A stretch of 39,172 bases of DNA from Candidatus Dojkabacteria bacterium (GTDB lineage Bacteria > Patescibacteriota > Dojkabacteria > SC72 > JAFGCJ01), in contig JAFGIK010000067.1 of assembly GCA_016929645.1 (NCBI GenBank), positions 1-39,172 on the forward strand. The letters run 5' to 3'. This document shows, one piece after another, positions 18,886 through 32,157 of this stretch. Positions within the stretch are counted from its first letter, which is position 1. The number at the start of each line of letters is the position of its first letter. The position numbers and the translations under genes are program-made. Below the pieces are notes generated by a model. That model worked only from the letters and a program-made list of their open reading frames with translations, had not been told where the DNA came from and made no database searches.

Positions 18886-20490
<1,605 letters not shown>

Positions 20491-21472: not shown

Positions 21473-24668
<3,196 letters not shown>

Positions 24669-26316: not shown

Positions 26317-28848
26317 ATGAAAAAACCGTTTACGCGATTCACTAAAAATGCATTCATTTCGTTACGCCTGGCAACAACAATTGCTGATCGTATGAAATCT
26401 GTGGAGGTAAAGCCTAAGCACCTTTTCCTGGGTCTGATTTTAAACAGAGCAGGTATAGCGTCTCGGGTGCTTAGTGCTATCCGCATAGATATAGCTAAGA
26501 CATTTAGTTCGTTTTCTGATGGGATAGACCTCTCTGATATTAAATCCTCTAGGTTTTTTGATAAAGATAAGGCAATTTCCGAAGATCTTTCTCGAGTTAT
26601 TGGACGGGCGTTTAGTATTGCTCATGACCTAAATCATGTTTATGTTGGTACAGAGCATCTTTTGATGTCTATTCTTCATGATAAAAAATTTGATTTTGTA
26701 AAAGATCTTGCTGTGTCTGGTATAACTCTTGATTCAGTGAGGAAGAATATTCTTAGTTTTACATCATATCCTCAAGGTGTGTTGTCTAAACCTCCAATAG
26801 CAAGTGATGCAGGTAAACCTTCGGCCCTTGATATTTTTGGTAGGAATCTTACTGATCTTGCAAAAAAAAGTAAACTTGATCCTGTAATTGGTCGAGATAA
26901 AGAGATAGATGAATTAATAAATATCCTCTCAAGGCGAAGGAAAAATAATCCCATAGTTGTTGGAGAAGCTGGTGTAGGTAAGACAGCGTTGATAGAAGGA
27001 TTAGCTCAAAGAATTGTAAAAGGTGATGTGCCTGACTCTTTAAGGAATACAGTGATAATTTCCCTTGATGTTACGGGGATTGTTGCTGGCAGTAAAATGC
27101 GTGGTGATATGGAAGAGAAGATGATGGCTGTTATAAATGAGGTTGCAAGTGTACCAAATATGATACTTTTTATTGATGAAATACATACAATTCTTGGTGC
27201 TGGTGCTGTTGGTGGAGGGGGGCTTGATATTGCAGGTGTTCTTAAACCTGCACTTGTTCACGGTGATTTTAGGTGTATTGGAGCTACTACGGTTGCTGAT
27301 TATAATAGGTATTTTGAAGAAGAGCCTGCTTTGAGTAGGCGTTTCCAAAAAGTTCTTGTTGAGGAATCCTCGGTCGAAGATACAGTTCAGATTTTAAAGA
27401 ATCTAAGGCCGTTGCTTGAAGCTCATCATAATGTTGTCATAACTGACGATGCAATTGAGTACGCTGTGAGGCTTTCTGATCAATATGTGAGTGATAGATA
27501 CCTTCCTGATAAGGCTATTGACCTAATGGATGAGGCTGCGGCTGCAAGAAGGCTTGAAATAGAAAAAGAATATGACTCTCTTGGTGATGTTAAAAATAGG
27601 TATAAACAGATTATTGAAAAAAAGGAAGGAGCTATAGATAATGGTGAATTTGATGTTGCAATTAATTTGAGAAAAGAGCAAAAAAAGGTCGAAAATGAAC
27701 TTTATGATCTGAAAAAGGCTAGAGTTAGGATAAAGAAGAATAAGAAGTTTCAGGTTGATGCTAAAGTTGTGCGAGAAATAATCTCAAGATGGACAAATAT
27801 TCCTCTTACAACCTTGGATTCAACAGAATCTTCTGAATTAATTCATTTTGAGGATACCCTTGCAAGTTCTGTAATTGGGCAAAACGAAGCAGTCTTGAAG
27901 GTTGCTAATGCTATAAAACGTGCTCGAACGGGGGTTACTAGTGTAGAAAGGCCATGGGCATCTTTCCTGTTTCTTGGTCCAACTGGTGTTGGTAAAACTG
28001 AGCTGGCAAAAGTTCTTACGCGAGAATTATTTGGTGATGAGGATCGTTTAATTCAGGTAGATATGAGTGAAATGATGGAAATGCATAGCGTATCAAAGTT
28101 GATTGGTTCTCCTCCTGGTTATGTTGGATATCGTGAAGGTGGCCAGTTGACGGAAAAAGTTAGATTGCAGCCACACTCAGTGATTCTTTTTGACGAAATT
28201 GAGAAAGCGCATATTGATGTCCTTAATTTGCTTTTGCAGATACTTGAGTATGGCCATCTTACAGATGGTAAGGGACGAAGAGTTAATTTTAAAAATACAG
28301 TTATTATCCTTACGTCCAATATTGGTGCTGAAGATATTCGGCGTGATAAGGTTCTCGGTTTTCAAGAAGCAGATGTGAGAGATCGTTCTTCCAAGTCTGA
28401 TAAAGAAATAGAGTCTGCTTATGATGGTATGAAGGAAAAGCTTCTGGATCAATTGAAAAAAGAGATTAGACCTGAGCTTTTGAATCGTCTTGATGACATA
28501 GTTATTTTCCGAACATTGACAAGGAAAGATGCTCGTAAGATTGTTGACCTTTTGCTTGGTGACCTTAATGGTCGGCTCGAAGATCAAAATGTTAAGGTAG
28601 ATCTTACTGACGAAGCTAAGGATTTTATTGTTACGCAAGGATTTAGTGAAGAATACGGAGCGCGTCCACTTCGTAGGACAATTCAGGATTTTGTAGAAAC
28701 ACCTGTTGCTAACTATCTTTTGAAATATGGCGGAGGTGTTGTTTTGAAGGGTAAAAAGGCTAAACCTGAACGTAAGAAATTATTAATAGCTGTTGATAAA
28801 GAGAAACATAAACTTTCTGTTTCGAAAGTAAAAAGTGCCAAAGAATAA
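26317..28848 (+). CDS. clpC: ATP-dependent Clp protease ATPase subunit, ClpC-like
   Basis: This 843-residue protein has an N-terminal Clp_N double repeat (about 1-150) and D1 AAA with Walker A GEAGVGKTAL near 216 and Walker B ILFIDEIHTILG near 283. A short UVR-type middle segment lies near 428-460 (KEGAIDNGEFDVAINLRKEQ). D2 has Walker A GPTGVGKTEL near 553 and VILFDEIEKAH. The D2 loop KVLGFQ near 679 supplies the LGF tripeptide used to dock ClpP. A short middle domain with UVR plus an LGF loop fits ClpC rather than the disaggregase ClpB. It unfolds proteins for ClpP; no clpP is in the window. The 3' end overlaps radA by 14 nt. Confidence 0.93.
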   Translation: MKKPFTRFTKNAFISLRLATTIADRMKSVEVKPKHLFLGLILNRAGIASRVLSAIRIDIAKTFSSFSDGIDLSDIKSSRFFDKDKAISEDLSRVIGRAFSIAHDLNHVYVGTEHLLMSILHDKKFDFVKDLAVSGITLDSVRKNILSFTSYPQGVLSKPPIASDAGKPSALDIFGRNLTDLAKKSKLDPVIGRDKEIDELINILSRRRKNNPIVVGEAGVGKTALIEGLAQRIVKGDVPDSLRNTVIISLDVTGIVAGSKMRGDMEEKMMAVINEVASVPNMILFIDEIHTILGAGAVGGGGLDIAGVLKPALVHGDFRCIGATTVADYNRYFEEEPALSRRFQKVLVEESSVEDTVQILKNLRPLLEAHHNVVITDDAIEYAVRLSDQYVSDRYLPDKAIDLMDEAAAARRLEIEKEYDSLGDVKNRYKQIIEKKEGAIDNGEFDVAINLRKEQKKVENELYDLKKARVRIKKNKKFQVDAKVVREIISRWTNIPLTTLDSTESSELIHFEDTLASSVIGQNEAVLKVANAIKRARTGVTSVERPWASFLFLGPTGVGKTELAKVLTRELFGDEDRLIQVDMSEMMEMHSVSKLIGSPPGYVGYREGGQLTEKVRLQPHSVILFDEIEKAHIDVLNLLLQILEYGHLTDGKGRRVNFKNTVIILTSNIGAEDIRRDKVLGFQEADVRDRSSKSDKEIESAYDGMKEKLLDQLKKEIRPELLNRLDDIVIFRTLTRKDARKIVDLLLGDLNGRLEDQNVKVDLTDEAKDFIVTQGFSEEYGARPLRRTIQDFVETPVANYLLKYGGGVVLKGKKAKPERKKLLIAVDKEKHKLSVSKVKSAKE

Positions 28849-30244
28849 ATCTTCAAAAACTGTTTATGTGTGTGATGAGTGCGGTAATGAATATTCTACC
28901 TGGAGTGGCCAGTGTTTGTTTTGTAAAAGCTGGGGATCTCTCAAGGAGAGAAATCTTGATGTTAGTGAGATATCTAAACTTTCCGCTACAGTCGAATCTG
29001 CGGAAATTTTTTCAATTGATAAATTAGAATCAGCCAAAAACGTAACTCGTGACTCAACGGGATTTTATGAGGTTGATAGGGTACTTGGTGGTGGTATTGT
29101 AAAGGGAGAGATGATTCTGATTAGTGGCGAGCCTGGTATTGGAAAATCGACATTGCTTTTACAAATTGCTAAAAAAGTCCTTTATTCTGGCGATTTCTCA
29201 ATACTTTATGTTAGTGGAGAAGAATCTGTAGATCAACTAATGACTAGGTATGGAAGAGTTAAGGTAGATAAATCAGATTCTTCTGATAGAAAAAATAAAG
29301 TTTTGGACGATAGAGATACAGGTCTCAAGTTGAAAGGTAAAGAAAGTTTTCCAGAGAAAAACTTTTGGATTACGGAAGAGAATAATATTGATAGAGTTAT
29401 CAAAGTAGTCGATGAGAAAAGACCTAATTTAGTCATTATTGATTCAATACAATCTGTATTTTCGGAAGATTCTTCAAGTTTTCCGGGCAGTATTTCTCAA
29501 GTTAGAGAGTGTGGAATAAAACTAATGCGCTGTGCCAAAAAGCTTGGTATTCCTTTTTTTATTGTTGGTCAAGTTACAAAAGATGGCGTAGTTGCTGGGC
29601 CTAAAGTGCTTGAACATATGGTTGATGCTGTGCTGTATTTTGAAGGTGATGATCTTGGAGAATATAGAGTATTGCGAAGTATAAAAAATAGATTTGGATC
29701 GACCAACGAGATAGGTATTTTCGAAATGACATCGTTTGGTTTATTGGAGGTTGATGATACAGCGAATATTTTTGTTTCAGATAGTGATGGTGGCACAGCT
29801 GGTGTTGTTAAGGCTGCGATATACAAAGGTTCCAGGGTAATTTTTATTGAAATACAGGCACTTACGATATCTTCGAGTTTTAACCTTCCGAGAAGGCTTC
29901 CAACGGGTTTTAAGAAATCTAGACTTGAAATGCTCTGTGCTGTACTTGGCAGGAGGATGGGTTTGGATTTGTCAGGTGATGATGTGTTCGTTAATGTTTC
30001 TGGTGGTATAAATGTAACAGATCCTGCAATTGATGTTGCTGTTTGTGCTGCGATAATTAGTGCCAAAAAGAACATAATAATCAACTTTAATAAGGTTTTT
30101 GTTGGTGAAGTAAGTTTATCGGGAAATATTAAAAAAGTTATGCATATCAAAAATATTCAATCCGAGGTTAAAAGAAGAGGTTACCACTATGAAGGTTGGT
30201 TGGAGAGTGGAAAAAATAAGATTAAGGATGTATTAAAGTTTTGA
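28835..30244 (+). CDS. radA: DNA repair protein RadA (Sms)
   Basis: This 469-residue protein begins at a GTG at 28835 inside the end of clpC. The C4 zinc finger is C13, C16, C27 and C30 (CDECG and CLFCK). The RecA-like ATPase has Walker A GEPGIGKST near 98. The RadA-specific KNRFGSTNEIG motif is near 284. The Lon-like C-terminal domain carries GEVSLSGNIKKV. RadA promotes branch migration in recombination. A stretch near 143-170, with repeated Asp, Lys and Ser, is an insertion relative to typical RadA. The clpC-radA pairing with overlapping frames is also found in Gram-positive genomes. Confidence 0.95.
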   Translation: MPKNKSSKTVYVCDECGNEYSTWSGQCLFCKSWGSLKERNLDVSEISKLSATVESAEIFSIDKLESAKNVTRDSTGFYEVDRVLGGGIVKGEMILISGEPGIGKSTLLLQIAKKVLYSGDFSILYVSGEESVDQLMTRYGRVKVDKSDSSDRKNKVLDDRDTGLKLKGKESFPEKNFWITEENNIDRVIKVVDEKRPNLVIIDSIQSVFSEDSSSFPGSISQVRECGIKLMRCAKKLGIPFFIVGQVTKDGVVAGPKVLEHMVDAVLYFEGDDLGEYRVLRSIKNRFGSTNEIGIFEMTSFGLLEVDDTANIFVSDSDGGTAGVVKAAIYKGSRVIFIEIQALTISSSFNLPRRLPTGFKKSRLEMLCAVLGRRMGLDLSGDDVFVNVSGGINVTDPAIDVAVCAAIISAKKNIIINFNKVFVGEVSLSGNIKKVMHIKNIQSEVKRRGYHYEGWLESGKNKIKDVLKF

Positions 30245-30485
30245 TGCGATAGGATAGGCTTCCTCTTTTGTTTGATTTTTCATTATTTAGTATAACATTT
30301 CAGCTATTTTCCCTAATTTAGGTTCGCTTAATGCGTATTCGTAACATGCGTAGTGAGCGATGATTATTCGTAACATTTACGTCTTGCCCTGACGCTTGCC
30401 TGAGGAATATCTCATTGTAACGGCGTAACTTGCAGGTGGATTTCGGGCTGGTTGCTATCGGGTAGTGACGAGATTAACTAAGGGG
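30245..30485. other. non-coding spacer after radA
   Basis: No gene is seen. The segment 30310-30480 looks richer in G and C than its surroundings and contains ATTCGTAACAT twice (30338-30348 and 30367-30377). No terminator is evident. The next promoter begins at 30486. Confidence 0.5.
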
Positions 30486-30514
30486 TTGACAAATGTAGGG
30501 CTATGAGCTAAAAT
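30486..30514 (+). promoter_or_regulatory. promoter of the structured RNA
   Basis: Consensus TTGACA (30486-30491), a 17-nt spacer and TAAAAT (30509-30514). The predicted start is near 30521, about 20 nt before the first large hairpin. Confidence 0.8.
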
Positions 30515-30520
30515 GTATTT

Positions 30521-30775
30521 GTTCTTAAACATATATCAATGAAAAGTAGGTTTGTTCCAGGATCTGGTTTAGCTATAAACTAGTACTGGGTCCTTGGATA
30601 AGCCTACTTTTGATGAATATCTGAATTTATCCCAGGATCTGGTTTAGCCATAAACTAGTACTGGGTCCTTGGATAAGTTCGGATAAATCGGGAAGCAAGA
30701 TTGTTCTTCGACTTTTGTAGAAGCTTTTCTATAAAAGTCGGGGTCGGTTGGGGCAGTACCGATCCCGATTATTGA
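30521..30775 (+). ncRNA. unrecognised structured RNA (independent ncRNA or long rho leader)
   Basis: About 255 nt contain at least four strong stems. Two long hairpins share a 46-nt core (separate entry). A third hairpin, CGACTTTTGTAGAA/TTCTATAAAAGTCG around GCTT, is at 30709-30740. A fourth, built on GGGTCGGT and ACCGATCC, is at 30741-30765. AATCGGG (30686-30692) can instead pair with CCCGATT (30764-30770), which excludes the fourth stem, so two alternative folds exist. There is no ORF of note. It has its own promoter, and rho has a second, nearer one at 30789-30817, which favours an independent transcript. It does not match tmRNA, RNase P RNA, SRP RNA or any riboswitch I know. Confidence 0.65.
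30557..30677 (+). repeat. tandem 46-nt core repeat with compensating outer stems
   Basis: Copies at 30557-30602 and 30632-30677 differ at one loop base (T30574 versus C30649). Each core folds as GGATCT with TGGGTCC and GGTTTA with TAAACT around a GCYA loop, leaving a 5-nt bulge AGTAC on the 3' side. Outside the repeat the sequences are unrelated but still pair: AAAAGTAGG/CCTACTTTT for the first and ATCTGAA/TTCGGAT for the second. Confidence 0.85.
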
Positions 30776-30788
30776 TATAACTCAACGT

Positions 30789-30817
30789 TTGACAAATTCT
30801 CAACATGTAAATATACT
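30789..30817 (+). promoter_or_regulatory. rho promoter
   Basis: TTGACA (30789-30794), a 17-nt spacer and TATACT (30812-30817): near consensus. The start would be near 30824, about 77 nt before the GTG of rho. Confidence 0.8.
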
Positions 30818-30900: not shown

Positions 30901-32157
30901 GTGAATGTTTCTGAGTTAAGCTCCAAGACCGCTACCCAATTGAAATCTCTCGCAAAGAAACTTGAGATAGATTTAGGGAAATCTAATGAAAAAACAGCTC
31001 TTATTAAAAGCATATTGAAAGCTACTAGTGAAAAAGAAGGCTTTAAGTATATTACTGGTATTCTTGAGGTAATGAATGACAGGACTCATGGAGTTCTTCG
31101 AGCTGAAGCTTTAAAACCAAGTGACACTGATACATATATAAGTGGTTCTCAAATTAAAAAATTTAGACTTAAGACAGGTGATGTTGTGACTGGTCCTGCC
31201 CGGCCACCTAAAGAAAATGAAAAATATTTTTCTCTATTAAGGGTTGATTTTGTATGGGATCAGGAACCTATTGAAATTATGAAAAGACTTGATTTCAGGA
31301 AGGCAACACCAATTTTCCCTGATAAACAGATTAAGCTTGAGACAACCGGTGATGTTTTGTCGACAAGGATGATTGATCTTTTGTGTCCTATTGGTTATGG
31401 ACAAAGAGGTATGATTGTATCTCCTCCTAAAGCAGGTAAAACTTATTTGTTACTTGATATTGCAAATGGTATTTCTCAGAATCATAAAGACATTGACTTA
31501 ATGGTCGTTCTCGTTGGAGAAAGACCTGAAGAGGTTACTCATATTGATAGATCAGTTGATGGTGAAGTATATGCTTCTAATTTTGATGAAAAGCCTGAAG
31601 ATAACTGCAAAGTGGCAGAAATTGCATTAGAAAAAGCAATGAGGATGGTTGAGCTTGGTCGAGATGTTGTTGTACTTATGGATAGTATTACTCGTCTAGC
31701 AAGAGCCTACAATATTACAATGCCAACTTCAGGAAGGACTCTTTCTGGTGGTTTTGATCCTGTTGCTTTGTTCCCACCAAAACGTTTTTTTGGTGCAGCT
31801 AGAAATATAGAAAATGGAGGAAGTTTAACGATCATTGCTACAGCATTAATTGATACTGGAAGTAGAATGGATGACTTAATTTACGAGGAATTTAAAGGTA
31901 CAGGTAACATGGAATTACATCTTGATAGAAACCTTGCAGAAAAAAGAGTTTATCCTTCAATTGATATTGTAAGGTCTGGAACTCGACATGAAGAGTTACT
32001 TTTAAGTAAAGAAGTATTGAATGATTCATGGAGGGTTAGAAGGATGCTTGAAGCTGTATCTCAAGAGGAAAATTCTACAAGCGTTCTTCTTGAGAGACTT
32101 AAAAAAACTAAGAACAATAAAGAATTTTTAGCCACATTACACGAAAGTGTTAACTAA
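30901..32157 (+). CDS. rho: transcription termination factor Rho
   Basis: This 418-residue protein has a GTG start at 30901. Rho N-terminal SAP-like helices (1-45) are followed by the primary RNA-binding cold-shock-like domain, with [15 protein letters not shown] and [16 protein letters not shown]. The RecA-type motor has [19 protein letters not shown] (Walker A near 174), [15 protein letters not shown] (Walker B), the Q loop region [20 protein letters not shown] and [15 protein letters not shown]. All key segments of a functional hexameric terminator are intact. The shortage of intrinsic terminators in this window agrees with active Rho-dependent termination. No SD is visible before the GTG. 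Confidence 0.97.

Follow-up and report, generated by a model that had tools for sequence, protein, structure and literature searches.

The RNA Locus and Its Neighbors

The window analyzed here is the whole stretch of 39,172 nucleotides of contig JAFGIK010000067.1, and the host of the RNA locus that it carries is Candidatus Dojkabacteria (WS6, CPR). A gap of 656 bp separates a radA-like gene from rho, and this gap contains a first promoter, a structured RNA, and a second promoter. The features are given below with their positions in the window.

28835..30244, plus strand: radA-like gene, upstream neighbor (Pfam matches; named from domain content and gene order)
30338..30375, plus strand: two direct repeats TTCGTAACA, 29 bp apart (30338, 30367), upstream of promoter 1
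30486..30514, plus strand: promoter 1, TTGACA-17-TAAAAT (from the sequence; start expected near 30521)
30521..30766, plus strand: ncRNA, about 246 nt when measured through the 3' hairpin (fold z, homologues, covariation)
30542..30611, plus strand: arm 1, holding core copy 1 (30557-30602); fold z -6.7; R2 match E 2.7e-15
30618..30685, plus strand: arm 2, holding core copy 2 (30632-30677); fold z -7.3; R2 match E 2.4e-14
30688..30711, plus strand: small linker hairpin H3 (fold; its GCAU/AUGC stem covaries in the order)
30712..30737, plus strand: linker hairpin H4, variable in sequence (folds; a hairpin here also in single-sequence folds of relatives)
30740..30766, plus strand: 3' hairpin H5, GGGGUCGGU-UGGGGCAGU-ACCGAUCCC, loop GGGCAGU, near-identical across the order
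30789..30817, plus strand: promoter 2 (rho), TTGACA-17-TATACT (from the sequence)
30901..32157, plus strand: rho, downstream neighbor (Pfam Rho_RNA_bind and ATP-synt_ab)

The segment from 30515 to 30780 folds with a z-score of -11.5, and none of the shuffled sequences was equally stable. The plus strand is the one read as RNA, since the fixed G.U wobbles would turn into A.C mismatches on the minus strand. In the fold of the window copy, a stem closing the whole RNA is predicted at 30532-30541/30770-30779; no such closing stem comes into view in the relatives. Elsewhere in the window, the 16S (18886-20490) and 23S (21477-24667) genes exceed the lengths of their Rfam models, at 1605 versus 1533 nt and 3191 versus 2925 nt, respectively—these lengths suggest insertions in both genes.

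The Arms and Their Repeated Core

The preliminary description of this DNA reported a 46-nt core that occurs twice with one change, and both copies are present, one in each arm; when extended, the repeat covers 52 nt at 94%. The same description enclosed the cores in outer stems, AAAAGTAGG/CCTACTTTT and ATCTGAA/TTCGGAT, both of which exist and lie within helices that covary across relatives. Its account of the arm tip fared less well: a GCYA loop and an AGTAC bulge were said to be kept in both cores, and the minimum-energy fold and a sister genome (L004) show another layout. In that fold a stem of 4 bp, with a loop of 7 nt and a single bulged base, makes up the apical part of the arm, and the sister genome has the same layout with changed pairs (UUAG/CUAG, AUAG/CUAU, and GUAG/CUGC, in our own reading of the alignment).

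Covariation across 34 arms is extensive. Both sides have changed in 17 of 23 pairs, and 96.4% of the cells are paired, compared with 71% in shuffles and 33-53% when the alignment is slid; the covariation score is 0.72 against 0.22, in an alignment that was partly fitted and was also the source of the structure. This biases the result towards that structure, but the difference from the controls is very large. RNAalifold finds 17 pairs changed on both sides in the one-arm alignment (A1) and 16 in the two-arm alignment (A2). Certain features of the arm are fixed: the tandem wobbles of UCUGG/CUGGG (U.G in 33/34 arms, G.U in 34/34), together with a C.U-type mismatch after UCC and the CC/GG element.

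The 3' Hairpin

The best-conserved part of the RNA is H5, which the preliminary description overlooked. In 39 related genomes, a plain search at the DNA level recovers a near-invariant block of 27-28 nt (window 30739-30766), usually once per genome. Among 18 sequences of several lineages the GGGCAGU loop is invariant and 7 of the 9 stem pairs have changed on both sides, and covariation in H5, like that in the arm, is far beyond both controls; in L157 (family f12), by our own reading, the loop sits on a wholly different stem. The covariation of the arm and H5 stems bears out the earlier suggestion that selection acts on RNA structure.

A mutually exclusive AATCGGG/CCCGATT pairing had also been proposed. 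It is possible in the window RNA, but relatives show no conservation of a sequence-specific pairing of this type: across species it does no better than when the tails are shuffled among them (p = 0.22), and we reject a conserved switch of this kind. In the full-length ensemble of the window RNA, the 3' hairpin dominates over the alternative pairing.

Promoters and Transcript Ends

Two near-consensus promoters had been described as bracketing the RNA; both are present, and both are conserved well beyond shuffled sequences. At promoter 1, 11-12 of the 12 consensus bases are matched in 47 of 51 non-redundant loci, a level that 0.7% of shuffles reach. The second promoter, before the downstream gene, reaches the same 11-12 of 12 matches in 29 of the 51 loci, versus 0.4% of shuffles. 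Taken with the covariation, these comparisons indicate that the structure of the RNA is under selection and that a strong, predicted sigma-70-type promoter precedes it.

The tail after H5 is U-rich in many species, not in all; that of the window has 6 T in 14 nt and no clear U-run.

Distribution in the Class

A covariance model of the RNA (R1) matches 80 of the 86 class genomes and all 17 sampled families, mostly at one locus each. The preliminary description would have counted the absence of a homologous element from related genomes as a refutation, an objection that this distribution decisively removes. With the same model, a phylum sample of 380 genomes gave matches in 32 class genomes and in 7 others, all of the latter weak. 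Pattern scanning across GTDB genomes yielded 55 loci, of which about 53 belong to Dojkabacteria/WS6 or to unresolved records (Patescibacteria or bacterium). The spread seen beyond Dojkabacteria is a lower bound, because the RNA-model searches there used strict filters. We set aside two pattern-scan loci from outside the CPR (L086 and L090), which lack promoter and context and look like chance, and two weak model matches outside the class (G354 and G402), in which the hairpin or loop is distorted and no rho was found; these also look like chance.

In relatives the RNA is about 150-255 nt long and consists of one or two long arms, linker hairpins, and H5. In all 29 loci first examined, the RNA is flanked by a radA-like gene and rho as far as the contig extends, and the order radA/clpC-RNA-rho holds in most loci. 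There are exceptions: family f15 keeps the RNA between clpC and rplJ/rplL-like genes, with no rho beside it (L164, L165, L168, and L169; the genes, for L10 and L7/L12, were named from translated sequence), and family f17 retains the RNA with rho not next door. Judging by its distribution among these genomes, the RNA is a core gene of class Dojkabacteria.

Module Number and Separate Modules in Other CPR Classes

The preliminary description offered, as one of two readings, a new ncRNA with two identical ligand- or protein-binding modules. That it is an RNA gene is strongly supported; the two modules are not essential, as most lineages of the class have a single arm. The families with two arms are f1 (the window and L004), f2, whose second arm is often degenerate, and f11, where the arms precede rho and H5 is absent. 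In L042 (f3, 1965-2291) the whole RNA is found twice in tandem between radA and rho, and the second copy has a C-G to U-A change in H5. Within a genome the arms of f1, f3, and f11 are 83-98% alike, versus 48-74% between genomes; since arms of one genome resemble each other more than those of different genomes, duplication or homogenization has recurred.

Outside the class the two modules appear separately. In f30 and f46 (five genomes) the arm is a stand-alone small RNA located after lon, with its own promoter. The stand-alone loci are L171, L172, L175, L191, and L192; L175 and L192 carry TTATCCACA close to where the RNA begins. H5 alone, immediately preceded by a promoter, is found upstream of rho in f24, f30, and f103; in f44 it comes after radA, and the contig stops there. 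Judged genome-wide, two of the H5 matches are weak (G151, E 0.008; G240, E 0.03), with weight added by their position before rho; a further weak match, in G181, was rejected because its loop differs and rho is absent. A hairpin with a GGGGCAGU loop is found before rho in CPR genomes outside Dojkabacteria at L173, L176, L188, and L190.

Comparison with Known RNA Families

No family of Rfam 15 scores above its gathering cut-off for the window RNA, and matches with E up to 10 are chance matches only, nearly all to miRNA families. In the literature covered, mainly open access, we found no description of such an RNA, and a search for a phage origin gave no match. Two common bacterial RNAs are accounted for elsewhere: 18 of 19 genomes carry RNase P RNA (RF00010) at another location, which in the window's genome is G000:C26, and 13 of the 19 have tmRNA (RF00023) above cut-off away from this locus, at G000:C49 in the genome of the window. 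By these database comparisons no relative of the RNA family is known; the way it works may nonetheless turn out to be familiar.

The signal recognition particle (SRP) RNA model (RF00169) finds a match in only one of 19 genomes of the order and in none of the 10 genomes of a further test that included other classes. That single SRP RNA-like match is in G013 (L100), a genome with 7% contamination. In G012, a near-complete single contig of 733,750 bp, neither SRP RNA nor an SRP-type GTPase motif was found, and Ffh was not found either (tblastn with E. coli Ffh gave E = 1.8, versus 3e-65 for TrmD); TrmD and L19 were both found. These results suggest that the SRP has been lost in the Dojkabacteria lineage of this genome.

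Proposed Function

We favor the reading that this is an independently transcribed ncRNA that docks a partner in trans and is not primarily a leader of rho, which on the genome comparisons above seems probable, though by no means secure. We infer trans action and partner docking from the fixed non-canonical features and from recurrent arm duplication. The invariant mismatch and wobbles, placed amid freely changing stems, would form a docking site for a protein or another partner, and repeated duplication of the arm would provide more such sites. H5 would be a second recognition element and, in the many species where the hairpin is followed by a U-rich tail, would also end the transcript. On this view the RNA would probably form a small, stable ribonucleoprotein or act as a regulator that sequesters a protein, instead of switching rho in cis.

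CsrB/RsmZ-type RNAs, in which repeated protein-docking hairpins of variable number sequester a protein, serve as our working analogy, as the candidate docking arms here are likewise repeated and vary in number. The module differs: it is a long arm with tandem wobbles, present in one or two copies only, and not a CsrA-binding GGA-loop hairpin. Neither the arms nor the linkers contain a run of GGA loops.

The main alternative is a cis-regulatory leader or attenuator of rho. Here H5 would stop transcription coming from promoter 1 or be overridden, according to whether a partner occupies the arms or the GGGCAGU loop. Like attenuation leaders, the RNA lies before rho in most loci and has a terminator-like 3' hairpin in many species, with U-rich tails after many H5 copies; the lone H5 of other CPR families, found before rho right after a promoter, also fits. 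However, the RNA has its own promoter and a separate strong one stands between it and rho, f11 places arms before rho with no H5, the arm lies apart from rho in f30 and f46, and the alternative pairing proposed for a switch is not conserved. Because f15 and f17 keep the RNA with no adjacent rho and the arm is located elsewhere in other classes, we conclude that it is probably not primarily a rho leader. The tandem regulatory leader of the preliminary description is thus weakened by f15 and f17, by the RNA's own and the usually separate rho promoter, and by the lon-linked arm, and retains in its favor the H5 that stands alone before rho elsewhere; as an account of the whole RNA we regard it as unlikely. 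H5 at least may act on rho in cis, as most loci directly precede rho and H5-like hairpins do so in other CPR classes.

6S RNA is a single-copy, strongly promoted, trans-acting structured RNA of roughly 200 nt, and a divergent, RNA polymerase-binding relative of it would share much with the RNA described here: one copy per genome, a strong promoter, a length of about 200 nt, a long imperfect hairpin arm, and expected trans action. The slot is also vacant, in that the Rfam 6S model (RF00013) finds nothing in 19 genomes. Against this, the model is absent even from the permissive (E <= 10) matches at the locus, and the consensus folds are branched and modular—separate arms and a 3' hairpin, with arms that can be duplicated and vary in number, rather than a single rod with a large central bubble. 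We consider a 6S-like RNA very unlikely.

A highly diverged SRP RNA, for which the vacancy of RF00169 and the existence, in two other CPR families, of arm-only RNAs of about 100 nt that fold as one imperfect hairpin could be cited, is the least credible of these readings, as the arm lacks the GGAA tetraloop and AGCAG side and has no Rfam match, and G012, with neither Ffh nor the GTPase motif found, would have no SRP to serve; for that genome the reading is largely refuted.

Returning to the trans-acting, partner-docking RNA, a more ambitious form of this proposal can be put forward tentatively, as a possibility that we would not yet back. The RNA might belong to a core, abundant RNA-protein particle of the class, with a standing like that of 6S RNA, assembled from two modules that are separate in other CPR classes, in bacteria seemingly devoid of an SRP.

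It is rare for a class of structured RNA to be nearly universal in a bacterial class and yet absent from Rfam. The separate encoding of the two modules in other CPR lineages points to an unusual fusion or fission of RNA modules. Natural mutants are on hand—one-arm, two-arm, arm-only, and hairpin-only—along with a covariance model and clear module boundaries, which makes the question of RNA-based regulators in the CPR directly testable.

Upstream Sites

The pair of direct repeats upstream of promoter 1 has counterparts in most loci of the order, where two CGTAAC[A/T] copies spaced 28-29 bp apart lie at about -150/-122 from the RNA start; the repeat pair (TTCGTAACA in the window) is possibly a regulator site. 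In f2 (L010-L027), TGTGGAT occurs at fixed positions of about -55 and +16 from the RNA start, flanking the promoter. These sites resemble part of a DnaA box (TGTGGATAA) and are candidates only; L061 and L096 have TGTGGATAA at +16.

The loci of genome G012 are L193-L229, and this genome has a dnaA-like gene near its GC-skew minimum (43860-45353 and 725529-725744 noted). Should the contig be circular, about 50 kb would separate the RNA from the dnaA-like gene.
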